Origin: Bryoerythrophyllum caledonicum
Lineage: Eukaryota > Streptophyta > Bryopsida > Pottiales > Pottiaceae
Assembly (NCBI GenBank): GCA_963971425.1
Contig: OZ020525.1
Coordinates: 9,965,560 to 10,029,559, forward strand
Direction of reading: 5' to 3'
Length of the DNA stretch: 64,000 nt
How positions within the stretch are numbered: the stretch's first letter is position 1; each line of letters opens with the position of its first letter. Below the pieces are notes generated by a model that was not told the DNA's origin, did not search any database, and saw nothing but the letters and a program-made list of their open reading frames with translations. Position numbers and translations under genes: made by a program. This document shows, piece by piece, positions 20,768 through 46,969 of this stretch.

Positions 20768-22351
20768 CAGTGACCTTCAAAACTGTCCCAATGTTTCTAA
20801 TATGGAAGTTTGGTGAGTTACCAAATAGTGATTGCATGCTAGACTGACATGGCATCAATTTAGTTACATTCTATTATGAGTAAGGTATTCAAGGAGCAAG
20901 TCTTACCACTTGTCTCTACATGCATGTGCATGAATTGAAGCTCTAGATATTTCCTCTTCATTGGGACAGTTTTGAAAGTACATATGAGTGAATCTTGTGT
21001 GCATAGCAAGTGAAGTGTACATGCATTGTGAATTGCTTGGTTTGTGTTCAGTTGTGTGTATTTGTTCTTCTTGCGTCATATATTTGTTTTTTTCGTGTTT
21101 AGCTTCACAAGTGAAAATGGTGAGACCATTGTCCCAGGGGAAGCAACAAGATGTACTTTCTTTGCTTCAAAAAGGTTGTAGTGTGAGAGAGATAGCCAAG
21201 TCTTTGCATGTTGGTAAATCAAGTGTACAGAGGCTTTGTAAGAAGCATTTTCCATATGCAAAGCTTTCAGTTGGAGGTAGACCACGCAAGTTGACAAGTG
21301 CAATGGAGCGGTCTTGTGTAACTAGTATAACTAGAGGGAAGGTGTCTACTGCAAGAGAAGCTACTAAACTGGTGCAAGAAGTTTTTGGAGTACAAGTCAG
21401 TGAAGTTACTGTACGCCGTGGACTTTGTAGAGCAGGTTTGCAATCGCATGTGAAAGAAAAGAAACCACATTTGTCAAGCAATAATATTAGGGCTCGCTTA
21501 GAATTTGCTAGAAAGTATCAGCACTGGACTATTGATGACTGGAGTCACGTGATATTCTCAGATGAGACTAAAATTAACAGATTTTCTTCAGATCGGAGAG
21601 TTTGGTGTTGGGTTCGTGATCCACAGGAACTTTCAGAGCGGACTGTTATTCCGACTGTGAAACATGGTGGTGGTTCTGTGATGATATGGGGATGTATGTG
21701 TATACATGGACCTGGCATGATGTGTAGAATTGAAGGTCGCCTCAATCAGCATGGTTATCAAAAAATCTTGGAGGAGCATCTCTATGGTACAATTCAAAAA
21801 TATAATTTAGATGCATCAAAAGTCATATTTCAACAGGATAATGCACCTATACATAGCAGTAATAGTATGAAACAATGGTTTTCTAGGCAACCTTTTGGTG
21901 TCTTATCTTGGCCTGCTCAGTCTCCAGATTTGAATCCTATAGAAAATCTATGGGCAATTTTGAAAAGGAGATTAAACCGATATGACACACCACCAAAAGG
22001 GATACTTGAATTATGGTCTCGTGTAGAAGAAACCTTCCCTTCTATCACTGTTGATGATTGCAAGAGACTTATAGAATCAATGCCCAGACGAATAGCAGCT
22101 GTATTAAAATCCAAAGGAAAATGGACAAAGTGGTGAGGAATTTCCATGTTGGACCTTCAAAAGTGTACCAATATACATAGTAGCTTTAGGTATTTTTCCT
22201 TTCTCATTGAGCGCTTCAATTTTGTTGGAATTTTTGTATACAATTAGTACATTGTATGTACTATTTCAATAAATTTACTACATTCCATTCCCTGAATTTC
22301 TCTTACCTACATTAATATGTACAAACATTGGGACAGTTTTGAAGGTCACTG
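20768..22351 (+). mobile_element. Tc1-like transposon with open transposase (family 2)
   Basis: The ends are CAGTGACCTTCAAAACTGTC and its reverse complement, flanked by TA (20766-20767, 22352-22353). Size is 1584 bp. Both ends have an extra inner copy of the terminal motif in opposite orientation (inner left about 20960-20979, inner right about 22151-22175), so each end alone can fold into a hairpin of about 200 bp. The empty site is kept in units A and D (TTCATGTAAATCCCG). Confidence 0.93.
21117..22136 (+). CDS. Tc1-like DDE transposase (family 2)
   Basis: 339 residues from the ATG at 21117 (MVRPLSQGKQQDVLSLLQKG). An N-terminal helix-turn-helix (SVREIAKSLHVGKSSVQRLC) is followed by a GRPRKLT motif. 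The DDE core has IFSDETKINRFS, FQQDNAPIHSSNS and SPDLNPIENLWAIL, with 34 residues between the second Asp and Glu. It ends MPRRIAAVLKSKGKWTKW. It is uninterrupted and only distantly similar to the family-1 protein, so it is a separate lineage. It has no introns. An upstream in-frame stretch from 20988 is not family-like and is left out. Confidence 0.93.
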   Translation: MVRPLSQGKQQDVLSLLQKGCSVREIAKSLHVGKSSVQRLCKKHFPYAKLSVGGRPRKLTSAMERSCVTSITRGKVSTAREATKLVQEVFGVQVSEVTVRRGLCRAGLQSHVKEKKPHLSSNNIRARLEFARKYQHWTIDDWSHVIFSDETKINRFSSDRRVWCWVRDPQELSERTVIPTVKHGGGSVMIWGCMCIHGPGMMCRIEGRLNQHGYQKILEEHLYGTIQKYNLDASKVIFQQDNAPIHSSNSMKQWFSRQPFGVLSWPAQSPDLNPIENLWAILKRRLNRYDTPPKGILELWSRVEETFPSITVDDCKRLIESMPRRIAAVLKSKGKWTKW

Positions 22352-29085: not shown

Positions 29086-32000
29086 GCCTCTCCTCTCTCA
29101 CCCGCCCGCTCTTCTACTCCCAACTTCGCCTCCCCTCCACAATGCTTATGGGTCGAACCACCAACAAGCGTGCCACTCACTCCTGCTTCCTGCACTTTTC
29201 AGTGAGAGACTGCTGTCCTGTGCTATTGGGGTCACTCGTTTGACACCCTGCGATATCCAGGTCATACTGAGGCGTTCCACTTGTGGATTTCACAATTTAA
29301 TTGTAATCTTCCTGTAAACGGTTGTCTGCGAAGAATAAGGATGAGTCTCAATTATGTATTTCACCTTGTCCTCAACCAGCTCAGAACTTTAGGTATTATA
29401 CCCAAGTTGTGATACTCCAGGAATACTATTCTCAATCCCCTGTAATACCATGCTTAGATGTCAAATTTGAATGTCTGCTGTGTGTGCAAGCACTTTCATG
29501 CTTAGATGTCACGTTCGTGCTTAGATGTGTGACTCATGACCTGAGTTTGCGATGAAGGGATTTTCGTACACAATATGTTCCGTCCTGCTGTTTTTACAAG
29601 ATGTTAGCTGAACTAATTTCACATGAGTTTGTCTTATAATATATCTGCAGATCATATGTCTTACATTGAATGAACAAATTATCAAAAGTTTGGCTCCTGA
29701 AATCACCACAGTAATGATAAGATTCACATCAGAGTTTCAAAACAAATCATTGAAAGAATTGAAAATACATGAGTTCTGGCCATCCATCTTTTTTTCTTTC
29801 TATGCAAGTCGCATAACTCTCCACTCCTTCCCGGTGACCCAATGGTTGTTGAATGTGAACCAGCCACAAAAATCTCTACACAGCTCAAATGGCGCAACTG
29901 AGATATCTTTGAATACATGCATGACCCTGAAACGAAGTTTTCTTTTCCTCTGGCAAGGACGCAGAGAATTACCACGTTGTCCACAGCACTCTACGAAGTG
30001 ATTTGTGATGATGAGAAAAGGTCGCTCGACAAGAATATTACAAGCAAAACTGGGTACATCAAAGTATGTAGAGTGGCGACCAAAAGTCTGCGGACAATGA
30101 ACCACCTCTCTATGAAGTGTTAACTATAGCTTAGTTGGTGGGTTAATAAGAGATTTTTTAAGCAAGCTCTAATTAGTACACCACATGGCACCTTATGAAC
30201 ATTGATACGCTCGAAATTTGCCACTTGTAGAGATTATTCATGCAAAAATCATGAAGGGGTGTGTACAACTTAATATGCACATAAGTTGTACACACCACTA
30301 TCTTTTCATTACAAGTGCACTTGTGAAGCTTTTTGTTTTGGAATTTTTTTGTAAGATTTGGAGAGGCCTTAGGTGATTTGCTATGTCTCCTAGAGGGCCT
30401 CAGAATCAACGTAGGGCAGTTCTTGAGATGTATGAGTGAGGCAACTCATATGGTGGGATTTCAGTAGTTTTGGCCATACCTCGAAGCACTTCTTTTGACA
30501 TAGTGCAAAGGTTTTGTGAGAGAGAGCCTAATAGACAAAACTTCACTGTTGAATGGGGTGACCGTGACATTGTGAGGAGATTAAATGATTCAAATATTGG
30601 TACAGCGGCAACTATAGGAAGAGTGTTATGATACGAGGGCTTGCGATTGAACGATAATACGATTAAAAGGAGTCATTGGGAGTAAGGATTGAGATTATGT
30701 GTGAACAAGAAGCCACTTTTGACAAAAAATACATCGAGCACGTCGTTTGCAGCGGTCAAAGAAGTGCAAGCATGCATAATGGGAGTTTTGGACTGATGTC
30801 ATTTTTTCTGATGAGTCTAAATTCAATCTTTTTGGCTTAGATGGACGTCAGTATTGTTGGAGAAAGAGTGGAGAACGTCTTTTAGATCAGCATGTGCAAT
30901 CTATAGTCAAGCATGGGGGAGGAAATATAGTGGTTTGAGGTTGATTGAGTTGGGAAGGAATTGTTAAGCTTCATTTGATTGAAGGGAATATGAATAAATA
31001 TGTATATCGCGATATTTTAGAGACGGAACTTATGGGCACTATACAGATGCGAGGTTTAGAAGAAGATGAGGTTATTTTCCAACATGATAATGATCCAAAG
31101 CATACTGCACATTATGTTGTAGATTGATTGCGTGCTCAAAAATTCCAATTTATTGGACACCCTCCACAATTACCCGACCTCAATCCAATAAAACATCTTT
31201 GGAATGAAGTAGATCGTTGTCTGAGAAGGTCTAAGAGGAAACCCACTAGTAAAAGTGACTTTGGGAAGAAGATCCAAGAAATTGGGTATAATATAGAGCC
31301 TGATGTTGTTAGGAAGTTGATACTTTCTATGCCTCAAAGGGCTCTTGATGTCTACCAAACAAAAGGTGGCTACACACGGTGGTAGTGTCTGTGAGTGCTC
31401 ATGAGTTGAATCATTGAGTTGTAAAGGTATTTAGTAATCTTTAGTCTTGTTTTCTATAGTTAATATGCAATAAAAAATCACTTTGACCATGAAGAATCTG
31501 TCAGGATCGGCGCATGGAGGTGTTTGTATAGATGGTATTCGGGTAGAAACCATCTAGAGAGTTGTGGAGTTACCGGAGAGCCCAAGACTTAGCGCTAATG
31601 GGAGATTAGGGTTAGGTTTAGTGCTGCGTGGCGGCTAGGGCAACGGTGGTGTCTTTCGACACCTCATCTCGGGACTTGGAACCCGGATGACCTCCACGTG
31701 TGGTTGAGGGAGACTCATCTTTCTCAAGTTGAGTCTCCCACGTGATGAGGTGAGGGTGTGTGCGTGTTGCACATCGTTAGCCTTATCCATATCATGTTTT
31801 CACTCTTGAAGAGTGGCATGGACTCGACTTATTGTGATTTGTGAGTATTTATCACTTATTTCTTACTTGAGAAAGATCATGTTGTGGCAACGGGTGTACC
31901 CACGATATTTAACACACCTAGTAGGGTTTCTACTTTGAGTATTACATTGTAATGTGTCCTAGATCTGGTGCACTAGGGTTTAGTGTTTCCTGGAGGTCTC

Positions 32001-32169
32001 ATTGGAGTGAAGCAACCAAGGTGGAGTCCCTGGAAGTAACCTCACTTGAGCGAGTTTAGCTGCAAGCGTAGGTAGTGCCTGCGACTTCGCTACACCCTCA
32101 CCTCATCTACTATCAACCACGTGAACCCAGCCGAACATCAGGTGACGAGTTCGCCGTTTGTGAAAATCG

Positions 32170-32385
32170 GAGGCGGTGGTGGCGGCGAACAAAGTGGACC
32201 GGCGACGAAAGGCGGCGGACGCGTAGGTGATCATAGACGACGAGATTCACAACTTTGAAGCGTGGAGGGACTCGTTAGAGACGGTGCCCACCATCAAGAG
32301 GCTGCGGTCTTACGCCGAGCGCATTAGGCAGTCAGAGCTGGAGAAGTGTTTGAGCAAACTCCCGGAGGATCTCACGACGAAGTAG
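32170..32385 (+). pseudogene. hemA: Captured glutamyl-tRNA reductase (HEMA) fragment
   Basis: 71 codons read in one frame, beginning EAVVAANKVDRRRKAADA, interrupted by TAG at 32224. They continue [20 protein letters not shown] and [20 protein letters not shown] to [11 protein letters not shown] and a stop. This is the C-terminal helical dimerisation region of plant glutamyl-tRNA reductase, the first committed enzyme of tetrapyrrole (chlorophyll, heme) synthesis in plastids. It is GC-rich compared with its surroundings and intron-free, which suggests capture of an mRNA or one exon. It lies in the element's leader and cannot make the enzyme. Confidence 0.85.
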
Positions 32386-33790
32386 AAGCTGAGGGGGAGC
32401 TGAGCGCGGAGCAGGCGGAGCTCTTGTAGCGGCGCAAGGCGATCTAGCAGGCGGAGCAGCAGTCGTCCGGGTTCGTGGTCACGGAGGTCGAGGATTGTGA
32501 GCAAGTGTGCGGCGGTGGTCGGTGACAAGGGCACTATCGATGTCCTCCGGGATCTTACCGCCGCGAAGGAGCGTCTGCACCCATTGCATCATCCACGAAG
32601 CTGAAGCCTCCCGCGAGTTGACGTCGTTGTTGAAGGACGAGGAGATCTTGGAGCTTCAGGAGGAGGTCGGCGCGTTGTGGGAGGTTGGTGTAGGGAGAAG
32701 CGAAAGAACTTCCTGGTTGCGCAGGAACTAGGCGTTCTTCAACCTGCCCTCTTAAACCACTCTGTTGGCATGAAGTCCTTGCTACCGTGGAAGGTACGCT
32801 GAGGTGGTGCCGCGCTAACGAACACAGTGAACGCCGCAAAGCAGCTGCATACAGAGTTGGCGCGTGGAGTTGGAAACGGGAGAGGTCGCCATTGTGCATG
32901 TTTTCACGGTGCGCCTGTATAGATGGTGCCACTGGCGCCTCTGTAGACGAGTAGATGCCTCTGTAGATGCCTCTGTAGATGGTACACATTCTCTCGTGCA
33001 AACAGAGGGTTTCCAGCTTGATACGGACGAAGGTTGTAGCTTTTTGCCGGGCTTTCTAGAAACCTTGTTGGGAATCCGGAACGGTAAAACCAGGTCGTTC
33101 GACTTTGTGTTTTCTGAAATGTGGAAGACTGAGTCTCTTTGCGGTTTGAAGGCTCGGTTTACAGCTGAAGGCAAGGAGCTCTCCCTTTGACAAATTCCGG
33201 AACTCAATAACGAACTTGCTCCCCAGCTCGTGGAGAACTGCACTACGGTGGCTTAAGTCAAGGAGCATTTGGGATGTGAGTGCGCGAGAAATGGCACAAG
33301 AAGGTGCTGCGGGGAAGGTGCCGATCTGACTGTGCAACCTTCACATTGCAATCCGGTGAGTAGCTGGAATATGTTGTGATTTATTCTCCTCGTGTGAAAT
33401 TTTGGTGCTCTTAGTGACGCGGAAGCGCTGCCAAAAGTTTGTTAGAATTGCATAGTGCAATTGTCTCCATGTGGGAATGATACATGCTTGAGCACATGTT
33501 AGCTTTGTGCACATTCTAGTGCAAGAGTTACCCGTTTCTAGTGATTTTGATCACTTAGAATTTTAGGGTGTTATCCTAGAACTTATCTAGTTCTAGAGAA
33601 AGGCCAGCCTCTTGCACGAGGCATTATAAGGCTTAGATTGGATTTAAGGTTTCTTCTAGGGGTAGTTAGTGGTAACTATTTGAAGGCCTAAGACAATTCA
33701 ACAAGGTAACGTATCCGGACCCGTGTTGGGAGGGGATAGTCAACTGCTTGGGGGAGTGACAAGTTTGTATGATGCATCTTGTTAGTATGT
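32386..33790 (+). other. Retroelement leader, GC-rich part, no clear gene
   Basis: This region follows the HEMA fragment. The plus strand has broken Glu- and Ala-rich coil-like reading frames (for example DLTAAKERL; ILELQEEVGALWEVG at about 32640), perhaps another captured or decayed gene. A short repeat (AGATGCCTCTGT) occurs three times at about 32940-32980. Nothing recognised. Confidence 0.4.
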
Positions 33791-34035
33791 GGTGAAAGTG
33801 CGGGAGAGCGGGTGCCATAGTCACCTTCTTCTTGCTCTTCGTCATTCTTGTAAGAGGTGAAGGTGTGGGATAGTGGGTACCATTGTTGCCCACTTCTTAC
33901 CCTTGCCCATTTGCTTGTGAGAGTGATTGGAAGAGTTGTGGGATATTGGGTGCCATAGTCACCTTTTTCTTGCGCTTTGCCACCTTTGGGGAGTGACTAG
34001 TAGAGGTATGGGATGGTGAGTGACATTGTCGCTTT
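33790..34035 (+). repeat. Degenerate tandem repeats in the retroelement leader
   Basis: A motif like GGGTGCCATAGTCACC followed by CTTCTTCTTGC recurs at about 33810, 33875, 33948 and 34018, giving a period of 65-73 bp and four diverged copies. It lies upstream of Gag. Confidence 0.7.
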
Positions 34036-34536
34036 CTTCTTATACTTCGGCTAGGAATTTGGATTATGGGGATCATGTATGGCTAGACTTTGGGTTCTTC
34101 TCATCAAATTATTGTGCACACTATTGGTGTCTTGCATCACATTGAGCTCAGTGTGGCATATGATAGTGAACAAGAAGTGAAATTCTAGCATTTTCCTAAT
34201 CTAGGGTTAACATCCATTGTGAGCCCACTTAATACAACCACGTAAAAAGAGTGGGTTGCATTAAGCATATGGGACATGGATAGTGGAGGAACGAAGAAGG
34301 AATAAAAAGAGTCTAGTGCATCCAAGGTAGAGATTAGCACCGAGACCCTTAGTCAATTGATTACTTGCCTCCAAGATTTGCAAGTTAAATCTTCACCTTC
34401 TCAGGCAAGCTCTAGTGGTAGGGATTTTGAGTTATCTCCTATAGCCAAGTCTCGAACCGGGACTCAAGACTTGCGAAAGCCAGGCACGAAGGTGCTAAGC
34501 GAAGAGTCCGTGAAGTATTAGACTTCACTTGGTGGG

Positions 34537-34917
34537 GTGCGCAAAGTTCGAGCGCTTCGGGCCAAGGAGGGTATTCGAGCTCCTCTTTGTCGTGCACGAG
34601 GCCAAGTCGAAGCCGTGGATCTTGTGGTTGGAGAGAAGGCCGTTGTCCTAAAGAACGTTGGGTCAAGGTACACCGTGGAGGTGGTGGATTTCCGCCGAGG
34701 AAACCAATTGCCCACGTTCTCCCTCATCTTCACCGAGTTTGAGAGTGAAGGCTTCGTGTTTCATACTACGTGGCAGTGGAAAGTGGGTACGTGGCGAGAG
34801 CGGGCCAGCAGTGTGTGGGACACACTCACCTTGGAGCTACTCGATTGGGAAGTATCACCCACTATCTACGCTCCGGAGAAGAAGGGCACTCATGAAGCAT
34901 GGCGCTTCTTTGATTGA
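34537..34917 (+). CDS. Small ORF upstream of Gag, unknown
   Basis: An open frame of 126 codons starting at a GTG, so the real start is unclear. It encodes a soluble-looking protein with TFSLIFTEFESEGFVFHTTW and LELLDWEVSPTIYAPEKKG. It overlaps the Gag frame by four bases and is in a different frame. It may be the N-terminal part of Gag separated by a frameshift, or a separate accessory protein. No domain recognised. Confidence 0.4.
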   Translation: MRKVRALRAKEGIRAPLCRARGQVEAVDLVVGEKAVVLKNVGSRYTVEVVDFRRGNQLPTFSLIFTEFESEGFVFHTTWQWKVGTWRERASSVWDTLTLELLDWEVSPTIYAPEKKGTHEAWRFFD

Positions 34918-36263
34918 GCCAACCAATTCTCAATTTGGAGACGTGGAAGGGGCCCGGTTTCACTCGGAAAAACAATCCATTTGCGGTAGGCGTTCGTGAA
35001 AGAGTGGCGGAGGAAGTTACCACTCAATCGAAGGAAGAGGAGGATACGGTCCAACCGATAGTAGAAGAACGTGAGTTTGTGGTAGAATCATTGGCACGTA
35101 GTGTAAGTTCCCCACCAAGAAAGCCTTTGCAATCAATTTTTGATTGGGAGGAGATGGCTTCACCATATGGAGGAGGAGGAGAACGGGGGGTGCGACGGTT
35201 TTCGGGTGCCACGGGCACTATCGAAGCGGATGACTTCAAGAGGGAGTTCACCATGTGGTGTGAACTCCAGAAGTCTCGCAACCCCAACTTCAACCCTTAC
35301 ATGGTGTGGAAGGCGTTATTTGGATGTCTAGAGGGAGCCCCGTTAGCGGATTATGGAGAATTCGAGGCGGCTCATCTCACGGAGATATTGGCATTGAGGG
35401 ATTTCTATGCACTGAATTACGCGGACGTATTCGGAGGAGCGCCGAGTGTTCCATCACGTGTGGGAAAGGGGAAGCAGGAGGAGGGCACGAGTAGTGCGGA
35501 GGACTTGAGCCAACCGATGGAAACGGTAGCTATTCCACCTCCGTTTTACCCTACGGCCGTATTCTTCACACAGATCCGTCGAGACTATGAAGGTCAACGG
35601 GCGGATAAGATGAAGGCATTGAGATCTTTTGCACGAGGAGGAGATGAGTCCTTGCGGGAAGCTCATGCGAGATTGCGGAGACTGATTTCTGCTACTCACG
35701 GAGTCACGGAGCAGCAAGCGGTGCAGCACTGGTACAACATCCTAGAGAATGAGATGAAGGCCTTAGTTCGCAATGAGGCATTGCGATTGGGTGAACCACC
35801 GACTTTGAGATTTGTGTTCGAGACGTCCGAGAGAATTGAGATCAATTTATTGGAGGAGAAAGCGGCCATGGGATTTCTCAAACGAGAAGAGAAGGTTCCT
35901 GAGAAAATCAAGGTGGCCAAGGCTGCGGTTCCCTCCTATGCCACCGACACTGAAGCATTATGCTTTAGTTGTGGCAAACCGGGGCATTTAAGGAAGGATT
36001 GCAAGGAAGGCAAGTCCTCTACCCCTCAAATTGGTGGCTATTGCTCTGGTTGTGGTGCCAAGGGGCATTCCGAGGCTAAGTGTTGGAAGCTCCACCCTGA
36101 GTTGAAGCCTTCTGGAGGCAAGGGAGCCAAGGCAAGCAACAAGGAGAAGGAGTCCAAGTCTTCGGGAGGAGACAAGAAAGGTTGGAAGGCCAAATTCGCG
36201 GAGTTGGAGGCCAAAATGGCGGCCATGAGCGCGAATGTTGCTTCAGTCAGTGAGAAGCCCTAA
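34914..36263 (+). CDS. gag: Gag with two CCHC zinc knuckles
   Basis: 449 codons if read from the TTG just after an upstream in-frame TGA; no ATG is near, and the first ATG (35155) would remove about 80 residues, so the start is uncertain. A capsid-like middle part (FKREFTMWCELQKSRNPNFN; QIRRDYEGQRADKMKALRSF) precedes two knuckles: CFSCGKPGHLRKDC and CSGCGAKGHSEAKC, both CX2CX4HX4C, near residues 348 and 376. A Lys-rich tail follows. Gag packages the RNA into the particle. A single TAA at 36261 separates it, in the same frame, from the protease ORF. Confidence 0.85.
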   Translation: MSQPILNLETWKGPGFTRKNNPFAVGVRERVAEEVTTQSKEEEDTVQPIVEEREFVVESLARSVSSPPRKPLQSIFDWEEMASPYGGGGERGVRRFSGATGTIEADDFKREFTMWCELQKSRNPNFNPYMVWKALFGCLEGAPLADYGEFEAAHLTEILALRDFYALNYADVFGGAPSVPSRVGKGKQEEGTSSAEDLSQPMETVAIPPPFYPTAVFFTQIRRDYEGQRADKMKALRSFARGGDESLREAHARLRRLISATHGVTEQQAVQHWYNILENEMKALVRNEALRLGEPPTLRFVFETSERIEINLLEEKAAMGFLKREEKVPEKIKVAKAAVPSYATDTEALCFSCGKPGHLRKDCKEGKSSTPQIGGYCSGCGAKGHSEAKCWKLHPELKPSGGKGAKASNKEKESKSSGGDKKGWKAKFAELEAKMAAMSANVASVSEKP

Positions 36264-36326
36264 GTCACTCCTAGTTTTCATGCTGGGAGCGGGTTTAGGC
36301 CCGATGATGACGAATTCGGGGACTAT

Positions 36327-38555
36327 ATGCTAAGTGGCATGGCACTTGCTATTACGGATGGCTCACGGGAGGCTTATGCCCTTACGCGGAGTCAAACACC
36401 AGTGCCAAAGGAGGTTCCACGTGGAGCAAGTCCAACCTTGGATCGTCAACATGGAAAGGACAACCGGCAAGCTCGATTGTCAGAGTCTTTCACGTTGGAG
36501 GAGATGGTGCCAGTATCTTCCATGGTGCCTCCAACGCGTCGGAGGGTGTCAACAACTCGCCCTACGGTTGAGATTGTAGAGCCAGCAACCACGGTGGTGA
36601 GAGAAGCGGCAAACGTGGTTTGTGAGGCTTCACTATTTTCTGCTAAATTGATGTCACAAGAGGGATTTAATGCAGTGGCGGTCTTCAAGATGGCGGCTCA
36701 AATGTGTGAGTTGAGTGACTCCACGGGCGTCAATGCGTTGAAGACGGAAGTGATTGAAGGAGAGGTGGATAAGAGTCAAGAGGACAACGTGGAGGGGCTG
36801 CTTTTAGCAGCCATGCGTGTCAAGACCATGGCCGCCAGACCTGCAATCGAGAGGTCATCCATTACACCTGGTGTAGTGGTTGACAACTCCCAAAGGATTT
36901 TCCAAATTGTTGGGCCCAAGGGGAGGGTTTTTGTGCCTCGACGAGTGCTTTTGGATTCAGGAGCTCAACCATTGATGCTGGGAGCATCTGCCCGTGAGGG
37001 GTTGGGTTTGACTGGGGACACTTTGGAAAAGTGTTCGTGGACAATTAGCACTTCCATGGGGGGTACGGAGCATGCTACGGGCATCACGAAGGAAGAGTTG
37101 ATTTTACGACTCAACGAAGATGATGTCGATGATGCAAGCTTTATAAAGGTGAAAGCTATAGTAACGGAGGCCAAGTCATACGATGTCTTGGTGGGCTCGG
37201 CGGTGCTATACCCCATGGGGTTCACCTTGGATTTCTGGGAGGAAACCGCAAGTTATAGACCAGGATGGCAAGCGGGAGATGGGCGGAAGGCCAAGCTACC
37301 AGCTCGTTTTATTCGAGTTCTGACTGGCAATCTTGCAGACGTGTTTGCCTTCTCAGGAGGCATGGATGTGAGACCATCATGGTTTCACAAGGGTTGTGAT
37401 ACTTTCCCGATGGATACCCCTACACTTCACAAGATGGATGCCCATGTAGGTGACACAAGTGGTGGAGACACGGAGACGTATCAACCTGGCATCGAAGCAG
37501 CGTGGGGGACCACGACTCAGCTTCAAAAGGATGCTGAACAAGTCATCGTAGATGCTTGGCAGCATTCTATACTCCCACAAGCGGAAGATGATTCTAAAAG
37601 GGACCAAGACTTAGGCCCACCTCTAGACACTTCCACCATTCACTGGAAAGCACCAGAGGAGGGTATTGTGTTGATGGAGTTATTCGGAGGGATTGGAAGT
37701 GGCTTGGTGGCAGTGCTGCAAGCAGGGATCAAGGTCAAACGCTATATCTACGTAGATGTTGATGAAGCAGCAAGACACGTGGCTAAGCGGCATTCACGGC
37801 GATTGAAGACTCAATTCCCATACTTGTTGGTCACTAGTGCCATCAAGACTTCATTTTCTACTTTTGTTGGTGATATTGCTTTGCTTTCAGCAGAGGATAT
37901 TCACCGTGTTGGCCATGTGGACCTTGTCATCGCGGGATGGCCATGTCAAGGATTGTCAATGGCTGGACACCAAAACGGGTTGAAAGACACTCGGTCTTCG
38001 CAGTTTCATGATATGATCCGCGTAATCCGTTTGCTTCAATCCTCTCAGAAGCGACCACCAGGTTACATTGTGGAAAATGTACCAGTGGTGAGTAGCTCGA
38101 GGTCGAGGACATTGGAGGGCATGCACCGCATACACCAGACTCTGGGTATGCCTGTGTTGTTGGATGCAGCTGCGGTGGAATCGCGAGCACATCGCCCGCG
38201 ATTGTGGTGGACAAATTTAGCACCTCAAGAGTTGTTACAGTCCGTTGTGGGTCGAATAAAACGGCCGGATGTCTATGTGAGTGATATTTTGGATCCTCAC
38301 AGGGCACCGCGACGCGTTTACCATGACGACCAACCACCTTTGGCGGTCGTTAACCGCAAAGGAGAACCACGTAGGGCAGTGCCCACGTTGGTTAGTTTTT
38401 CTCGGTCGTATGCCTTTAAGGATAACGGCCCGGGTCTTGTGTGGGATTCTTTGTCTCAAGAGATGGTGGAGCCTAATGCGAATGAACGGGAGAGAGCCAT
38501 GGGATTTCCCACGGGCACTACTGATGCGCCCGGGATCTCGGAGCAACAACGGTGA
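36327..38555 (+). CDS. Aspartic protease fused to C5 DNA methyltransferase
   Basis: 742 codons in the Gag frame. Protease active site: VLLDSGAQPLMLG at about residue 207. The C5-cytosine methyltransferase domain runs from about residue 447: motif I ELFGGIGSGLVAV (about 450), motif IV AGWPCQGLSMAG with catalytic Cys540, motif VI ENV (about 583), motif VIII-like SRAHRPRLWW (about 619) and motif IX-like ERERAMGFP (about 721). Motifs run in the ordinary, not the permuted, order, and motif I through the ENV resembles DNMT3. The target-recognition part is short. A TGA at 38553 stops it just before a motif X-like segment. The enzyme would methylate cytosine in DNA; its host role is unknown. Confidence 0.9.
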   Translation: MLSGMALAITDGSREAYALTRSQTPVPKEVPRGASPTLDRQHGKDNRQARLSESFTLEEMVPVSSMVPPTRRRVSTTRPTVEIVEPATTVVREAANVVCEASLFSAKLMSQEGFNAVAVFKMAAQMCELSDSTGVNALKTEVIEGEVDKSQEDNVEGLLLAAMRVKTMAARPAIERSSITPGVVVDNSQRIFQIVGPKGRVFVPRRVLLDSGAQPLMLGASAREGLGLTGDTLEKCSWTISTSMGGTEHATGITKEELILRLNEDDVDDASFIKVKAIVTEAKSYDVLVGSAVLYPMGFTLDFWEETASYRPGWQAGDGRKAKLPARFIRVLTGNLADVFAFSGGMDVRPSWFHKGCDTFPMDTPTLHKMDAHVGDTSGGDTETYQPGIEAAWGTTTQLQKDAEQVIVDAWQHSILPQAEDDSKRDQDLGPPLDTSTIHWKAPEEGIVLMELFGGIGSGLVAVLQAGIKVKRYIYVDVDEAARHVAKRHSRRLKTQFPYLLVTSAIKTSFSTFVGDIALLSAEDIHRVGHVDLVIAGWPCQGLSMAGHQNGLKDTRSSQFHDMIRVIRLLQSSQKRPPGYIVENVPVVSSSRSRTLEGMHRIHQTLGMPVLLDAAAVESRAHRPRLWWTNLAPQELLQSVVGRIKRPDVYVSDILDPHRAPRRVYHDDQPPLAVVNRKGEPRRAVPTLVSFSRSYAFKDNGPGLVWDSLSQEMVEPNANERERAMGFPTGTTDAPGISEQQR

Positions 38556-39056
38556 TCTTTACTTGGACAAGCGATGGACTTTAACTGTTTGACGTGGATC
38601 GTTTCGTTGCTAGTGGCAGAATAAAAGCGGTTGGCTTCTAGTTTTACCGGTTACATGGGGTCTTATGAGTTGCGGGCGGCCGGAGAACCATTTGTCTCTG
38701 TCAAAGTGACAGACAAAGTGGTTGAGGGCGAGAAGGCCTTGGCACCTCACCCATGGAATATGTGGAGCTCCGCGAACCTTTTCGCGACACCCAAGACTGA
38801 GGATCCTCTTCATGGAGTGAAGGATTGGAACCGAAGTAGGGAATTGGCCCACCAAAGGAAGGATTTGGAGGAGGCTGTGGAGAATATGTTCGTGGGAGAA
38901 CACACAACTCACCAAAGGGAGACAATTGGCAAACTATGCCAATTGGAAGGACTTGGAAGCTTGGTGGAGGTGGAAGGAGAGGAATCTCCTCGCATGGCAT
39001 CCAATAGCAACCAAGGAAGGAGAATCCTGCTCCAAAGGAACCGAAGGAGGCGGTGA
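38556..39056 (+). pseudogene. Linker between methyltransferase and RT, broken
   Basis: The frame of the methyltransferase ORF continues after the TGA with SLLGQAMDFNCL, which fits the C-terminal motif X helix of C5 methyltransferases. It is closed by TAA at 38622, then open again from 38625 to a TGA at 39054 (EPFVSVKVTDKVVEGEKALA and a charged stretch). The RT lies in another frame. Sequence just upstream of the RT ORF reads sensibly in the RT frame from about 39000 (after a TAG), so a small indel near there probably separates them. Confidence 0.6.
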
Positions 39057-40156
39057 CCAAGGATACTTGGAAACCGATGGTAGGCCTGGCGGATGGAGCA
39101 GTTGAGAGAGAGGAACATGAGTTCCTAAGGGAGTACTTAGATTGTTTTGCCTTTAGTCTTGAAGATCTTGGAGTATTGAAGGGGCAAGAAGTACATATCA
39201 ACTTGACGGACAAAGCACCAATATACCGGAAGTCGTACAAGTATAGCAATGTTGAACGGAGGATGATACGCGCTCGTACGGAGGAGTTGGTGGCTGCGGG
39301 GCTAGTAGAGTTGGCTCCACCGGATTGCGAGTATGCATCGGCGACGGTTATGCCATCCAAGAAAGATATCTACGGTAATTGGACCGAGAAGAGGATGTGC
39401 GGGGACTATAGGAGGATTAACAAATTCACCAAGTCGGATCGTTATGCGATGCCAACGCCGGAGGAGAACTTTGAGGCTATTGGTCACGCCAAGGTATTTA
39501 GTACGTTGGACTTGCGCTCTGGATACCACCAGATTGGACTGAGAGAGGAAGACAAGGAGAAGACCGCGTTCTGGGGCATTGACAAAGATGGGAAGGACCG
39601 GTTGTTCCAATGGAAATTCTTACCATTTGGATTGAAGAATGCGCCTGCCGAATTCCAAAGGGTTATGGACCGAGTATTCTCGGGCTTGGATTTCGTGAGA
39701 TGCTACATTGACGACATCGTTGTCTTTAGCACGAATCGAAGGCAATATAGGCTACACTTGATGGAAGTGTTTGCTAGATTGAGGCTCCACGGTTTGAAGT
39801 TGCACCCTGGTAAGTGCAAATTCTACTTTGACCGCATCGAGTACTTAGGCCACATGATATATCCAAGTGGATTGGGTGTGGTAGCTAGTAAAATTGAAGT
39901 AGTGATGTCTATTCCTAGACCAAAGGATATTAGCAGGCTACGTGTATTCTTGGGGTTGTGTAATTACTATAGAAAGTTTGTGAAGACTTTCAGTGCTATT
40001 GCCAAGCCATTAACCATGTTGACAAGGAATGATCAACCTTGGATATGGGGAGATGAGCAAGAGGTGGCCTTTCAAGAGTTGAAGGACCGCTTGGCATCGG
40101 CACCTATACTTCGAAGGCCAGTAGCCGGAAGGACATACCAGCTACACACAGATTAG
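39053..40156 (+). CDS. pol: Reverse transcriptase (Ty3/gypsy type)
   Basis: 367 codons. N-terminal part HEFLREYLDCFAFSLEDLGV, then RT: MPSKKDIYGNWTEKRMCGDY, FSTLDLRSGYHQI (catalytic Asp), FGLKNAPAEFQRVMD, and CYIDDIVVFS (YIDD catalytic pair), then LGHMIYPSGL and GLCNYYRKFVKTFS. It copies the element's RNA to DNA. A TAG at 40154, within the RNase H-side motif QLHTD-stop-SALGIGV, separates it from the next ORF in the same frame. The start is not certain because of the upstream frameshift. Confidence 0.92.
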   Translation: MTKDTWKPMVGLADGAVEREEHEFLREYLDCFAFSLEDLGVLKGQEVHINLTDKAPIYRKSYKYSNVERRMIRARTEELVAAGLVELAPPDCEYASATVMPSKKDIYGNWTEKRMCGDYRRINKFTKSDRYAMPTPEENFEAIGHAKVFSTLDLRSGYHQIGLREEDKEKTAFWGIDKDGKDRLFQWKFLPFGLKNAPAEFQRVMDRVFSGLDFVRCYIDDIVVFSTNRRQYRLHLMEVFARLRLHGLKLHPGKCKFYFDRIEYLGHMIYPSGLGVVASKIEVVMSIPRPKDISRLRVFLGLCNYYRKFVKTFSAIAKPLTMLTRNDQPWIWGDEQEVAFQELKDRLASAPILRRPVAGRTYQLHTD

Positions 40157-40162
40157 AGCGCA

Positions 40163-41323
40163 TTGGGAATTGGTGTGGTGTTGACGCAAATGGATGACGA
40201 CGGAAAAGAGTTTGTCATTGCGTACGCCAGCTGGTCCAACAATAATGCGGAGGCCCAGTATAGCTCGTATGAAGGGGAGTGTTTGGCTGCCATATGGGCA
40301 ATTGCTCATTTTCGATGTTACCTTTATGGTAATGAGTTCTTGTTAGTCACGGATCATCAACCTTTAAAGTGGTTGATGGACTCTAACAAACTAATAGGCA
40401 AGCTAGCACGGTGGGCCTTGATGTTGATGGAATACGACTTCAAGGTGGTGCATAGAGCGGGATTGGTGAATATGGATGCCGACGGCCTTAGCCGCAATCC
40501 AATTCCAAACCAAGCGGATGCTACGGGCGCTAGGTGGCACGGGGAGGATGAAGCCGATCCGTTGCCAGGTTGGCATTGTTCGGCCTTTCTAAGTGTATTG
40601 GCAATGCGTGGAGATAAAACCAGAGCTTCTACTGTGGCCATGGTAGATGAGGATGTCGGTGAAGAATCTGGGGGCGCCAAAGACATCTTTGAAGACATGA
40701 ACGTGATGCATTTTCTGAAGAATGGAGAAATGGTGCCTACGTGGTCCGCTAAGGAGAGAGATCTGGTCTCACAACGAGCCAAACGGTTCGTGTGGGAGAG
40801 GACTCACCTTTTGAGGGTGTGGCCGGATTGCACGCGGAAGGTTGTCTCAACTCCATTGGAGAGAGTGAAGCTCATCAAGGACACGCATGAAGACCTTGGG
40901 CACTTTGGAGTGCGGAGGACTTATAGCTTGCTCCAGCTTCACTATTGGTGGCGAGGAATGCAAAGTCAAGTTCAAGCCTTGGTAGCCCGGTGTATGATTT
41001 GTGATCGGGTACGAGCGTCTTTTAACGCTCCGATGCTACAATTGCAACCATTGCCAATTATGGGCTTGAGATATAGGTGGAGGTTAGATTTTGCTGGTCC
41101 ATTGCCAATGACACCTCGACACAATAAGTATGTGTTGGTGATGATCGAGCACTTCTCAAAATGGATAGAATTGGTGGCGTTGCCTCACAAGTTTAGTGAG
41201 GGGGCCGATTACTCTTTTCTTGATCGTGTTTTGAGTCGCTTTGGAGCTCCAGCGGAAGTTTTCACAGACCAAGGAAGAGAATTCTTGGATGACTTTCAAA
41301 CGTTGTGTGAGCAAGCAAGATAG
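40163..41323 (+). CDS. pol: RNase H and integrase N-terminal and core part
   Basis: 386 codons in the RT frame. RNase H: GIGVVLTQMDDDGKEFVIAY, YEGECLAAIWAI (Glu), LLVTDHQPLKWL (Asp) and NMDADGLSRNP. Integrase: zinc region HEDLGHFGVRRTYSLLQLHY then CMICD (HHCC), core WRLDFAGPLPM (first Asp) and FTDQGREFLDD (second Asp). It stops at TAG 41321 because of a one-base shift around 41318. The rest of the integrase is in the next ORF. The integrase inserts the cDNA into the host. Confidence 0.92.
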   Translation: MGIGVVLTQMDDDGKEFVIAYASWSNNNAEAQYSSYEGECLAAIWAIAHFRCYLYGNEFLLVTDHQPLKWLMDSNKLIGKLARWALMLMEYDFKVVHRAGLVNMDADGLSRNPIPNQADATGARWHGEDEADPLPGWHCSAFLSVLAMRGDKTRASTVAMVDEDVGEESGGAKDIFEDMNVMHFLKNGEMVPTWSAKERDLVSQRAKRFVWERTHLLRVWPDCTRKVVSTPLERVKLIKDTHEDLGHFGVRRTYSLLQLHYWWRGMQSQVQALVARCMICDRVRASFNAPMLQLQPLPIMGLRYRWRLDFAGPLPMTPRHNKYVLVMIEHFSKWIELVALPHKFSEGADYSFLDRVLSRFGAPAEVFTDQGREFLDDFQTLCEQAR

Positions 41324-41364
41324 ACCACCGCACTACTTCGAGGGATCACCCCGAAGCGGATGGA

Positions 41365-42132
41365 TTGGCGGAGCGCATGGTACAAACCGTCAAGAGGGGA
41401 CTTCGGAAGTATAGTTTGAAGAAGGGACATCATCAAGATTGGGACTTGCAATTACCGTGGATAGCCATGGGCTACCGGTTTAGCAAGCAAGCATCTTTGG
41501 CGTCTTTTTCTCCTTACTTCTTGTTGTTTGGAAGGCAACCGGTGTCAAAGAAGGCCATTCAGGCAGATGCTGACACCGTGTTGGCTAACATGGACAATCC
41601 TGATACGTGGGCTCAAGTGTGTGAACAACGTGCGGATTTGTTTCAACGGGTGATGCCTATGGCATTGGAGAATCTTTCCATTGCTCAACATCGGGATACG
41701 TTGCGTTATGCTACAATACGGGGAGGAGGCTACCGACCGCAAGTGCGACGGTTTACACCTGGAGACTATGTGTATTTGCAGCAAGCAGCGCCTACCACCT
41801 TAGATGTGACAGCGGGACGGGTGATCTTGCGAGTTCGTGAGGTGAAGAACTCAGGAGTGTTACTGTTGGAGGGTCGTGATGGTAAAATATGGAAGGATCA
41901 TACGCGCAATTGCGCTCCTTGCCATTTACCACACATTGATGGAACGATAAACCTTGGTATTTCTCACATCTCTTCTGGATTGCGATGTCAATTGTGTGGT
42001 AGTGCCAAACGGGCAGCCACAATGGTCATTTGTGACTTGTGTTCTACGGGGTGGCATCTAGAATGTCTAACCCCATCTCTTCTAGAGGTACCAGTGGGTC
42101 AATGGTCATGTCCAAATTGTTTAGCACATTAA
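41365..42132 (+). CDS. pol: Integrase C-terminal part with PHD finger
   Basis: 255 codons, in a frame one base off the preceding ORF. The catalytic-Glu motif (HPEADGLAERMVQT) spans the junction. Then SLKKGHHQDWDLQLPWIAMG, FLLFGRQPV, and a C-terminal beta domain (RRFTPGDYVYLQQA; GRVILRVREVKNSGVLLLEG). The last 50 residues form a PHD finger of C4HC3 type: CQLC, CDLC, GWHLEC, CPNC. PHD fingers bind histone H3 tails, so this may guide integration as chromodomains do in chromoviruses; that is inference. Confidence 0.9.
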   Translation: MAERMVQTVKRGLRKYSLKKGHHQDWDLQLPWIAMGYRFSKQASLASFSPYFLLFGRQPVSKKAIQADADTVLANMDNPDTWAQVCEQRADLFQRVMPMALENLSIAQHRDTLRYATIRGGGYRPQVRRFTPGDYVYLQQAAPTTLDVTAGRVILRVREVKNSGVLLLEGRDGKIWKDHTRNCAPCHLPHIDGTINLGISHISSGLRCQLCGSAKRAATMVICDLCSTGWHLECLTPSLLEVPVGQWSCPNCLAH

Positions 42133-42351
42133 GAGTCTACGTAGACAAGATCTAGCCATTAAAAGTGTTAGAGGCGATTAACGATGGGGCTCTCATTGCA
42201 CCCGGCCTATCCTTTGTCTACACGGTCTATTAGTGTCTTTTCTATAGGTCACCTTGATTTTTCTGGACTTGAGAGGTTTTCATGCTCGGTCGTTCATACA
42301 CTTTACGTTAATTGTGTGGTTCGCCGGTGTGCAAGGGGCTTCAGTACGGGC

Positions 42352-42371
42352 GAAGGGGGCAAGTAAAGGGG
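42352..42371 (+). promoter_or_regulatory. Candidate polypurine tract
   Basis: GAAGGGGGCAAGTAAAGGGG lies about 220 bp before the element's 3' end, the position of a plus-strand primer next to a short 3' LTR. The following 220 bp would then be the LTR, but I find no matching 5' copy. Confidence 0.45.
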
Positions 42372-42928
42372 TCCTTGTAGACCAATTACTAAATGTTATG
42401 GTCTGGGTATTTATTTCTTTTTCCCTAGCCTAGGTTGTTGGAGGTTGATAGTTTCTTTTGTGAACTATTGTTTTCATTGTTTACGGAGGCAACGGTGATA
42501 GTATAGTCACCATTGCTCCGAGGTTGCCTCTAATTGTGCGCTCTCACCTGTTGGCACGATGTTATCTTTGCACGATGTGTTTGTGCACGACAAATCGTAG
42601 AAGCTTGTTGCACATTTGAATTATTGTATGTTTTTCTAATTCATGTTTTCATTGACAACTTTGTGCTTCCTGCTTATTGCAACTATATGTGCTTGTGGTC
42701 GTGTATTTGCTATTTTATGATTTTTCATGTAGATTTGGTAGCTGATTTTGTAAAAGAACTCCTCTTTACAACCATTTCTAGTCGCCACTGTAACTCTCTC
42801 ACATCATGTAACTCTCTCACATCAAATTGATCAACAAAATCCTACTCACTTTTGAGGCATGCTAAAATGTCATATGTTCATAGCCGTGGAACGCTGACTC
42901 TGATGCCTAGCTCCTCTGCAAGTCCATT

Positions 42929-43018
42929 TCAAAAAGGCAACAATACAGCCAAAGCAAGCAGTATCACAATGGAGAGGCCTACTTTACTCATGTTTCCTAC
43001 TTCGCTGACATTGTTCAT
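42929..43018 (-). pseudogene. 46-codon membrane peptide ORF, unit D copy, truncated
   Basis: Starts at ATG 43018 as MNNVSEVGNMSKVG, then LSIVILLALAVLLPF. A TGA takes the place of the Trp/Ser codon found in units A-C, removing the acidic tail. Confidence 0.5.
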
Positions 43019-44274
43019 GTAAATCCCGAATTGGGTTATAGAGAGGCAAAGGACATCGTGACGCGAAAGCGACACAAGGGAACAACCGATGAGGCCCAAC
43101 CGACAAATGGTAGAAACGGCAAGAAAGGGGCACAAAATCCACAGGCTAAGAGGGAGAGGGAGATTCACAAAGAAAAGCCAAAGTCAAGAGAAAGTCTTTG
43201 CCAAGAGAACTATCTTCCCCGCAAGAAAGAAGCCCAGAGAAAGTCTAAGCGAAAGAAAAATAAAAACCACAGTAATTAGGTTCAATAGAAAAGAGAGAGC
43301 CACAGGCGAGAGCCGCCACGGAGGACAAATTAGCATTCAGATTATAAGCCAGGGAATCGGAAGTGAAGACAATGGTATCTAATCGTGGAGAGAGAACCTG
43401 GGAGGACAAAACAACCACGAGGGGTTTCTAGAGAGAGCACACCAGCCGCTCATTGAGAGAGACCGAGGGAGGGTTGAGGGACCAAAGATCCTAGCCATCT
43501 TGAAACACGGGGAGGGAGTGCTTCTACCTTCATAGTTTTGCAGCCAGAAATCATTTTAAGCCTCGAGATCTTTAGGAGAGTGAATTTGTCAAATAGGCCC
43601 GAGAGAGACTTGGGGTGAAGTTGGGGAGATCGGAAGAGGTATAGCAGAAGGCCATTGTGGAGGTCTTCCATGATCCTTTCAAGAACTTTGTCCGTTGTGA
43701 TATCTTGACTCACCAGAGGGACTTGCAAGTCACGGAGAAAAAAGGTAGGGGACAACTCAAGGGCACTACTTGGAGAGCCTTGTGAGTCTGTAGAAGGCGG
43801 ACGAGGTTGGGAGTGTTGGTTACAAAAACTCTTCAACTTGTTGGCGAGGTCCAGGTAAGAAACTTGCAATGGGATACGAGGTTCCAATGAACCTCGTTTA
43901 AGCGAGAACAAAAGAACTCCTCCCTTGCTCCAAGTAGAGAGGAAGATTGCATGTTTTTCATGTTGATTGTCAGATTTGGCACCCAACATCCATTTGGTTA
44001 GCTTCTACCCTAAATCCATCTCAGCATCAACGATCACTAGGCATGCACAAGAGAGCGCCAAACCAACATGAAATTCACCACTGCGCAAATTATATGCGCA
44101 TTTTTCATATCAAATGAACCATGTGAGGCACCTTCAAAGAATTTTCCTAGGAATTTTGTCCACCGTTGAAGGACATTTCCATACTTCCAGGAGACCTAGC
44201 CCCCCGTGCTGCTAACCAAGAGCTCCGGGAAGAGAAGGAAGACTTGATAAGGCCTCTACCAGCCTCTGATGTTA

Positions 44275-45690
44275 GGCTGAAGACTTGAAATTGTACAAAT
44301 AACGTTCACCTTGTCCCATACTCCTTGGACAAAGGGGCATAAGGGAAAGTATCATCTAGCGTCTCCCACTCGGCGAGATTGCACAAATTGCAGAGGCTTG
44401 AGTATTCAAGGTCTAGACGTCTAGGATGTAAGAGTTAAAACAAATGTTGTAACAAAGAGTTCTTCAATGGAGGGGGTGGATTTCTTGAATCCTAGCCAAA
44501 CATCCAACGTGACCGCCCAGATCTCATGCCAAAGTAGGCTCCTTTGATGGCAGACTTTCCTACCTTTGAAAAGCCATTCCTCGTCTTCAGGCCAACACCC
44601 CCCTTGCAAAAGCTTTAACTACGTGACCTTGTGTTGGAAAAACACTTTCTAGGGCTTGGACCTAGGTTCCATCCCCCTTGTAACCATCTTGGCCATGAGA
44701 GCAGATGCTTAAGCATCGGATCTAGGATCTTAATGCCTCTATGGGATGTTGAGAGAGTTGCCAAAGCCAGGCAACCCTAGCACAAGGATTGCCCTCCTCC
44801 TTCCCGGTCCAAATATAATTGCAAACCATCGTGCAAACCTTAGCAAGAACGCTTCAAGGCAGTTCTGCAACACTAGCAATGTACCAATTAGATGCAAAGA
44901 TGGCGTGGTTTGCGACAAGGATCTTAGCTGCCATCGGAAGAGGTTTATTTTGTTGGATGCTCATTTTCAATGGACTTGGGAAAGCACCTTAGCATTCTTG
45001 TCCTGCTGATTCATGTTGAACTTGAGCAAGAACCCAGGACTCATGCCCGAAAAGCCCTGAGGCACCCAATGAGGGCCCTTGACTTCTCCCCTACTCTAAG
45101 TCTTGGGTTGAAAGGAGCCCAAATGGTAGCACTTTTGCTCTACTTGACGAAGAAGCATGTACCCCTCAGAAGATTTGGAGGACTTTGAAAGCTTTGTCGA
45201 GGTTCTCTGGTGTGCCCTAGAGATACAAGCTAGAATTGTTGGCAAAGAGAGATTGAATCCTTAGCTGCTTTCCATATGGCATAACAAGGCCCTCGAAATC
45301 ATAGCGAGGGTTGTTGAATACGTGAGGAAGCACATCGGCAATGAATAAGTAGAGTATCGGAGACATAGGGCATCCCTACTGTATTCTTCTTTCCATTTGG
45401 AATTCTTGACCGACCTTGCCATTCACCGAGATCAAAGATTGCGCGTCCTTGTAAAACGTCGCTACCCACCAAATCCATATTTCTGAGAAGCCCATTTCTC
45501 GCATGGTCTCTTGTAGGAAAGTCTACTTCACCTTGTCGTAAGCCTTTTCAAAGACGATGGCAAGGATAACGAGGTCCTAGTTCGAAGATTTGGCCCATTC
45601 CATTGATTTGTAAGCGGGAAAAACATTGTCTAATATGTGACGACTATTAACAAAACCCGTCTGAGACGTGTTGATCCATTCTACTTCATT
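44275..45690 (-). pseudogene. Decayed LINE reverse transcriptase, unit D
   Basis: Nucleotide sequence closely parallels 14272-15730 in unit B, including the zinc-binding RT end (44609-44421) and the RT palm region near 45500-45690. No long frame is left. The lower part 43019-44274 is the same LINE-derived insertion without recognisable domain; a minus ORF at 43989-43450 is shared in pieces with A and B. Confidence 0.7.
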
Positions 45691-46969
45691 CACTCACGAT
45701 TCCTACTTTGCTGACATCGTTTAAGCACAGCTTCTTTGGCGCTCTATGCATAAAAGTGTCAACACTGTAGGTTCATCACATGCTTCCTATGCTTCCTTTA
45801 TATATCATTTACTTCACCACATTATCAGTTTTGTTGTCGATTACTTCACGCTTCATTGATGTCTTCCTTTTCATTTCTCAACATCATCAACAAAAGCGTT
45901 TCAGGCTCCTCTCCCTTTGTTTTCTTGCTTCGAGTGCAAGGGGTGAAACAAGCCACACATGAAGTGGATGACACAACTCCCAAAAGGGGATTACTCTTTC
46001 ACATCAAAGCAGGGCATGAGGAGGATGACATGACTCAGACACGAGGTTTACTCTTTCACTAAGAGTCATATCTATACAAGTCATGTGGTTTTTCAACAAC
46101 GTGCATACACATCACACCATAAAGGAGGCAGTAAAAGTGAGTTTCCATACGGACCTCCACACCACAACATCGTTGAATGAAAACTGCTAAAGCTTCTATC
46201 GCACCTCTACTAGACACCCACAAAACACACCCTTACCAGATTAAAGTGACTCGGTGGAGGACCGATTTGGAGATTGGCCAATTTTTGCTGAATTCCAAAC
46301 ATGGTTAGGGTTTTGCAATTTGGTATGAATCATGGTACGAGTTTCTCATAAAGGAACCATTAGAAAATTGGGTAGTAGTAAGATAGAGGCATCCAATTCC
46401 AATTGGCCACCGAATTCTGATCAATAAAGTATGCATGGCATGGTGCATGAAAATGGTAAATGTATGAAATGGTGCATGAAGTGACCCGGAACCGATAACT
46501 CAAAATCTAAAAACACTAGTCATTATCGGCATTGGATCATGAAGTGTGCAATTTTGGGTTGCTCCACCTCAATTGATCTCTCATTGGTGGCCTTGCCTCA
46601 AAAGTCGAGTAAGGCCGATTAGCATTGGGTACCCTCCATGAGTTAGTTTCCCATGGTATGTCTTCTCTCTTTTACTCACTCTCACTTTTGGCATTGGGCA
46701 AAGGAGGGCACCAAATCTCACCTACTCTACGGTTTGATTATGGGCTTCGGTGGTTTTTGGATTTTTTAATTCAATATCAATTGCAAATCTTTTTTATTAA
46801 ATTTGAAAAAGTTTGTTGAGTTTCATTCCTAATTCCGCATCTTTCTACATAAATGTGTATGTTACACTATGTCAATGGAGTCCCGAAATGGCTTAAGTGA
46901 TCGGAATTGGGTGCCTCTACCTTAATGCGCTCCAGTCGAGCTCAAGATCTTATTGCGGTTTGGTGTTGA

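Follow-up and report, generated by a model that had tools for sequence, protein, structure and literature searches.

A predicted DNMT3-type cytosine methyltransferase in the Gag frame of a Ty3/Gypsy retroelement of the moss Bryoerythrophyllum caledonicum

The element at the locus

The window, i.e. the whole stretch of 64,000 nucleotides analyzed here from Bryoerythrophyllum caledonicum (contig OZ020525.1, positions 9,965,560 to 10,029,559), contains a retroelement at 31499-42592 on the plus strand, as are all of its features. Its extent was placed by comparison with sister copies, and it lies between two AATC target site duplications (31495-31498 at the 5' side and 42593-42596 at the 3' side, without strand). 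The element opens with a repeat designated A (A1, 31499-31865), which starts with TGTC and is 97% identical to A of sister copy A14; its end was set by blastn and may be one base shorter. Repeat B (42362-42592) closes the element with GACA and is 99% identical to B of the same sister copy. A putative self-primer binding site, ACTTGAGAAAGAT, was read from the sequence at 31865-31877, and its exact 13-nt reverse complement lies within A at 31717-31729. In this family, A1 and gag are set apart by a stretch of about 3.3 kb that is devoid of long open frames (31878-35153 in the window).

The coding part begins with gag, which includes a zinc knuckle (CCHC) recognized by Pfam (35154-36260), and continues with a protease-like D-S-G-A motif (36954-36965); no Pfam match to a protease was found in the window element, and this part is identified from the D-S-G-A. 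The DNMT3-type methyltransferase, assigned by Pfam, phmmer and its motifs, occupies 37650-38622, with the catalytic Cys codon at 37944-37946 and the ENV motif from 38073. A leaky-stop motif, CAA TAG CAA CCA (39002-39013), separates ORF1 from ORF2. Pfam then identifies a reverse transcriptase (RT; RVT_1, 39383-39859), an RNase H (40046-40435), an integrase zinc domain (H2C2) with the start of the rve core (40859-41314) and a PHD finger (41986-42120; PF00628, 1e-9). A G-rich tract resembling a polypurine tract precedes B (42350-42361), and 13 long copies have it in the corresponding position. Elsewhere in the window lie two transposase frames of the Tc1/mariner type (HTH_Tnp_Tc3_2, DDE_3), one on each strand and separated by about 1 kb (18953-20023, minus; 20988-22136, plus).

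The copy in the window is of a short form, from which the second A and the second B are absent. No direct repeat of at least 60 bp, and hence no ordinary LTRs, was found in window 30000-46000, which fits the short form, since A and B are each present once. The copy is also broken and dead, and unbroken sister copies exist. Its gag is ended by an in-frame stop (36261-36263) that is absent from the sister copies examined, and two further in-frame stops (38553 and 38622) lie inside the methyltransferase. The ORF1 frame shifts between 38625 and 39005, before the UAG at 39005, and ORF2 carries a stop at 40154, which interrupts RNase H, as well as a frame change near 41311-41323. The original prediction had described a 742-aa product (36327-38555) that joins the protease directly to the methyltransferase. 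The methyltransferase part of that product is real; its limits are an artefact of the stops of the window copy, because those at 38553 and 38622 fall within the interval that was cited. Likewise, the methyltransferase does share the protease frame, and RVT_1, RNase H, integrase and PHD do follow downstream in separate frames according to Pfam, while the gag part of the proposed layout is cut off in the window copy by the stop at 36261.

Sister copies and reading frames

The genome searched comprises 437 Mb, with the window located on contig C14. The window methyltransferase was found at a minimum of 126 scored places (a lower bound, with 2051 candidates), at 83-100% identity including itself and nearly always at full length, and the RT at 108 scored places with 90-100% identity. 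The methyltransferase lies directly upstream of the RT at 94 of these 108 places, i.e. at 87 of the 107 that were entered with the domain 1.16-1.42 kb upstream, at 6 more identified by another search and at C3:27392586, which was left out of the 107-row count and carries a methyltransferase match. The remaining 14 RT places may lack the methyltransferase. The many genomic copies with the same fusion rule out a one-off insertion of the domain, and the element family is large and fairly young.

Seven sister copies were selected for long open frames and for an ORF1 contained within one fetched stretch, and do not represent a random sample. In all seven, gag, the protease-like region, the methyltransferase and a tail form a single ORF1 of 1353-1371 aa from stop to stop. 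In unbroken sister copies, an ORF2 of 1041 aa (RT-RNaseH-integrase-PHD) follows in the frame of ORF1 beyond one UAG, and this 1041-aa frame occurs at many RT places in the genome. The stop context is CAA UAG CAA CCA in 6/6 copies of family A and AAG UAG CAA UCA in 2/2 copies of family B. Both fit UAG CAR YYA, a consensus described for efficient readthrough (PMC3542737). This motif implies that the methyltransferase would be produced at the level of Gag, with smaller amounts of RT and integrase. Downstream of the copy at C1:57135748, a 1074-aa frame on the minus strand (L020:2910-6131) suggests a nested insertion.

Identity and conservation of the methyltransferase

The original prediction of a C5 methyltransferase built into a Ty3/Gypsy-type element is borne out by profile, sequence and fold. 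The frame at 36264-38552 matches Pfam DNA_methylase (PF00145) at 3.1e-13, and the methyltransferase stretch matches human DNMT3A at 2.5e-12 (phmmer). A profile built from 12 relatives retrieves from the PDB DNMT3A (1.5e-20), followed by DRM2 (5e-8), HhaI (1e-6) and DNMT2 (9e-4); within the PDB, the window-type enzyme is thus nearer to DNMT3 than to other C5 methyltransferases. The PDB fold that best matches an AlphaFold2 model of a relative (P0001, rather than the window copy; mean pLDDT 62.8, pTM 0.67) is that of DNMT3A (E 3e-14, TM 0.74 by target). The catalytic domain of human DNMT3A/3B, which is the best match in both sequence and fold, shares with the element an unrearranged order of motifs, although identity in the fold alignments is about 21-23%.

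By sequence, motifs I, IV (PC), VI (ENV), VIII (R-x-R) and X are present in this order; the end of the domain is missing from the window copy owing to its stops and is present in sister copies. The motif IV Cys, the ENV-type motif VI and the R-x-R of motif VIII are retained in 16/16 aligned relatives, and the motif IV Pro is replaced by Glu in 8 of them. Such a W-E-C in place of W-P-C, with the catalytic Cys kept, occurs in P0042, P0043 and P0045 (Closterium) and in algal relatives, e.g. P0234 and P0239. Neither PWWP nor ADD domains were found by Pfam in the frames of the window element. The assignment of 37650-38622 to a predicted DNMT3-type cytosine methyltransferase within a Ty3/Gypsy element thus holds.

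The highest-scoring PF00145 match genome-wide (C14:16016358) was set aside, as by eye it lies in bacterial-like DNA with an IS-type transposase. This locus (L027, G000:C14:16014000-16020000) scores 218 bits in a single 370-aa frame inside a 22-Mb contig, and represents either assembly contamination or transfer. Pfam matches to profile positions 48-120 make up a third set, of which the member inspected, L028, is a decayed copy of family B.

Three copies were compared between subfamilies with copy A14. The resulting omega is lowest in the methyltransferase (0.042-0.045) and rises through gag (0.079-0.091) and the protease region (0.25-0.31) to the tail (0.35-0.38), such that the methyltransferase (about 0.045) is the most constrained part of ORF1. 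The corresponding values are 0.038-0.048 for the RT, 0.076 for the RNaseH-integrase piece and 0.064 for the integrase-PHD piece. Since dS is near saturation, only the ranking of omega is safe. Very close pairs have too few changes for the ratio to be informative; the ratio for the methyltransferase of C2a/C2b is 0.93 on 4 changes. Judged from these ratios, the methyltransferase is under purifying selection between subfamilies. Two outcomes had been named in advance as speaking against the prediction, namely a domain confined to one copy and a lack of similarity to methyltransferases. Neither came about: the domain is similar to known methyltransferases, shared by other copies and under selection.

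Repeats, primer site and ends of integration

The long copies are arranged as A1-body-B1-A2-B2 and the short copies as A-body-B. Repeat A measures about 370 bp and B about 232 bp in family A, compared to 362 bp and 105 bp in family B. The outer ends are TGTC and GACA, except that copy A14 starts with TGTG, and 4-bp target duplications flank 13/13 copies for which both ends were covered (11 determined by script; C4 and B14 with the boundary set at TGTC/GACA). The B1|A2 joint, GACAGCTGTC, is identical in 13/13 long copies of both families, even though by eye the rest of A and B differs between them, and the A2|B2 joint is of constant length within each family. Within 9/9 copies, A1/A2 and B1/B2 each differ at 0-3 sites. 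When five copies are compared with one another, 9/10 pairs show 11-17 differing sites in A1; the tenth pair, C2a/C4, shows none, and A14 and the C7 copy differ at one site. Near-identity within copies and divergence between them indicate that both pairs of repeats are renewed at each round, in the manner of LTRs.

Among the 46 copies of the window subfamily, defined as those of the 108 RT rows at 94% identity or higher, a B|A joint is located downstream of the RT in 25 (at a distance of 3466-3485 bp from the start of the RT in 23 cases) and upstream within 12 kb in none, and 21 are without any of the 40 scored B|A joints. The mirror form, A-B-A-body-B, was likewise found in 0/46. The end stretches of 10 copies comprise 5 long forms and 5 with a single B lacking a second A, two of the latter covered at both ends, and 33 of the 40 scored A|B joints are paired with a B|A joint, leaving 7 unpaired. 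One copy exhibits three tandem B|A joints with a spacing of 599 bp (G000:C9:22325720-22327487).

The end of A1 reads ACTTGAGAAAGAT in family A and ACTTGACAAAGAC in family B. In 8/8 copies tested, the 13 nt of the primer site are perfectly complementary to a site inside A; the two families differ here at two positions, both compensated in the partner site. The primer site falls inside a predicted hairpin in 3/3 A sequences, folded without a shuffled control. Primer sites of the tRNA type start with TGG, and inspection by eye revealed no TGG at the end of A1. A G-run precedes B1 in 13/13 long copies.

Thus, of the hallmarks of Ty3/Gypsy elements, the order RT-RNase H-integrase (rve) is present, TG...CA ends with a target duplication in the 4-6 bp range are seen in 13/13 copies, and the sequence shows a putative primer site behind the 5' repeat as well as a purine tract in front of the 3' one. 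The same full LTR at both ends is not found, the arrangement being A-body-B-A-B or A-body-B. With the primer site after A and the purine tract before B, the LTR of reverse transcription would be B-A; an inserted copy, however, begins with A and finishes with B, which places the site of integration inside that LTR. The extra GC of the B|A joint is absent from the outer ends, suggesting that they arise by cutting of joint copies.

Relatives and comparison with known elements

Among the matches listed, the closest methyltransferases are metagenome proteins (up to 76%), followed, according to source names, by those of Marchantia polymorpha, Calypogeia fissa, Sphagnum and Closterium; one match, P0016, carries a bacterial source name. 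Two relatives with a long ORF1, P0013 and P0015, end like those of family B. For the integrase-PHD part, 335 relatives reach 1e-10 or better; the best 120 of them include Haematococcus, Volvox and Marchantia, and 40 of these 120 match the methyltransferase profile in-frame. No in-frame match to this profile was found in Haematococcus P0152, and Volvox P0236 and P0241 have partial matches ahead of the integrase. One scan of IMG/VR contigs confirmed no such element, and Klebsormidium is absent among the named relatives listed for the methyltransferase and for integrase-PHD.

Sixteen sequences contain a nearly full methyltransferase together with an RT; for family B, the RT used in the tree was taken from the decayed copy L028, i.e. 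a different copy from its methyltransferase. The methyltransferase precedes the RT in six (A, A14, B, P0160, P0045 and P0212) and lies between RT-RNase H and the integrase in ten, as shown by Pfam for P0203 and P0234. The two trees broadly agree (Mantel r 0.71, p 0.001; 16 sequences), and the six form a single group in each (support 0.99), the internal branches of which are weakly supported. This pattern would fit one old capture of the methyltransferase domain and its later move.

A Gypsy element with a DNMT3 domain is a known kind, since KnitGypsy-Dnmt3 of Klebsormidium nitens, whose DNMT3-type domain is under purifying selection, was published in 2018 (PMC5890265, de Mendoza et al. 2018). 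The original prediction suggested that the layout may be new; in the sister copies it consists of one Gag-protease-methyltransferase frame, a leaky stop, then RT to PHD. The split repeats, the internal integration site and the putative self-primer lay beyond what that prediction could show. Compared by description, both elements combine Gypsy domains, a DNMT3 domain and repeats in a DIRS-like arrangement. The domain of KnitGypsy-Dnmt3 is said to be in the Pol polyprotein, whereas that of the moss element ends the Gag-protease frame before the leaky stop. The available part of the description of KnitGypsy-Dnmt3 is without a PHD, target duplications, termini, self-primer or leaky stop, all of which are seen or, for the self-primer and leaky stop, predicted in the moss element; the Klebsormidium lineage is regarded there as having made its acquisition independently (PMC5890265). 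SymbioDIRS-Dnmt3 and SymbioLINE-Dnmt of Symbiodinium are likewise retroelements with a cytosine methyltransferase, and two domain orders coexist in SymbioDIRS-Dnmt3; the former employs a tyrosine recombinase and the latter is a LINE, as opposed to the rve integrase of the moss element (PMC5890265). The original prediction had already named reports from Symbiodinium and Klebsormidium; relatives of the moss element occur in liverworts, Sphagnum, Closterium and Volvox.

The split direct repeats of the long copies have the order A1 ... B1-A2-B2 described for PAT/Ngaro/VIPER-type elements, yet those elements encode a tyrosine recombinase (PMC6681497); with an rve core and H2C2 zinc domain, 4-bp target duplications in 13/13 copies and no Pfam match to a tyrosine recombinase in the window element frames scanned, membership of the moss element in the DIRS/PAT/Ngaro group is rejected as highly improbable. 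Self-priming has been predicted for the Tf1/Sushi and Tcn1 Gypsy lineage, the latter in moss, and would be shared by the present element; the available part of that survey, which identified its elements by ordinary 5' and 3' LTRs, mentions neither methyltransferase nor PHD (PMC6317226). Among the hits listed from the CC-licensed literature, none reports an element of this type from a bryophyte, Closterium or Volvox, or a Gypsy integrase that bears a PHD finger. Nor did these searches reveal a description of the relatives in Volvox, Closterium, mosses and liverworts, of a methyltransferase that closes the Gag frame ahead of a leaky stop, of the way the integration site is built, or of the change in domain order.

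Discussion

The preferred scheme, to which we give an even chance, links the position of the methyltransferase to the unusual ends of the element. Most ribosomes would stop at the UAG, such that the methyltransferase is made at the level of Gag and built into the particle, and the few that read through would yield RT-RNaseH-integrase-PHD. Reverse transcription would be primed by the RNA itself, at the site that follows A1, and yield cDNA with B-A long terminal repeats. The particle-borne methyltransferase would then methylate this cDNA, probably at CG, before integration, and the new copy would arrive already marked and be either shielded or cheaper to the host. The integrase would cut the palindrome GACA-GC-TGTC inside the B-A repeat rather than at the repeat ends, producing A-body-B or, after exact joining of the cDNA ends, A-body-B-A-B, with 4-bp target duplications. 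The PHD finger may read a histone tail and thereby steer integration.

A two-LTR circle cut at either B|A joint should yield the mirror form, A-B-A-body-B, equally often, and its absence from 46 copies counts against this scheme. The short copies may alternatively derive from recombination between B1 and B2 after insertion, in which case the long form is the sole product of integration and no cutting occurs at both B|A sites. B1 and B2 are nearly identical and only some 370 bp apart, and the copy with three B|A joints 599 bp apart is what unequal recombination would give; we consider this origin a serious contender, if somewhat short of an even chance. However, short-looking copies appear no older, as the unbroken 1041-aa frame is present in 7/21 copies without a joint and in 8/25 with one.

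Methylation by the element of its own cDNA or copies may be inferred from the domain and its position, and methylation of retrotranscribed DNA had been suggested for such elements in 2018 (PMC5890265). The observed/expected CpG ratio of the element (0.47-0.86, depending on the part) is not clearly below that of its flanks (0.39-0.81), and so provides no trace of self-methylation. The enzyme might instead act on the host genome: freed from Gag, it would enter the nucleus and methylate target sites, rival elements or host defence genes. The same conserved catalytic motifs would serve this end, and Gag-level expression would supply much enzyme; still, the Gag-frame position favors the particle, and a free enzyme requires no fusion, which makes action on the host unlikely. 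It is doubtful, to a somewhat greater degree, that the domain is a nucleic-acid-binding or assembly part for which catalysis is dispensable. The Gag frame is indeed home to domains of this kind, and the Klebsormidium domain showed no detectable activity in yeast, a negative result that its authors called inconclusive (PMC5890265), but the motif IV Cys, ENV-type motif VI and motif VIII R-x-R kept in 16/16 relatives, and an omega equal to that of the RT, argue for catalysis.

Returning to methylation within the particle, a broader account can be offered tentatively, as a possibility that is rather less than probable. A Gypsy clade of the green lineage with DNMT3 and PHD domains would predate the split between chlorophytes and streptophytes, the methyltransferase having moved between two places in the polyprotein. 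The integrase site would have shifted to the middle of the LTR, insertion would proceed via joined or circular cDNA cut at GACA-GC-TGTC, and the Gag-level methyltransferase would mark the cDNA in the particle.

In ordinary LTR elements, reverse transcription and integration have their ends in common; here, the two sets of ends are separate within one element. Surveys relying on matching 5' and 3' LTRs flanked by target duplications, as in PMC6317226, may overlook elements of this type. Cytosine methylation usually silences retroelements, and a methyltransferase shipped at the level of Gag would reverse that relationship; the question of whether elements mark their own cDNA thereby becomes testable in land plants.
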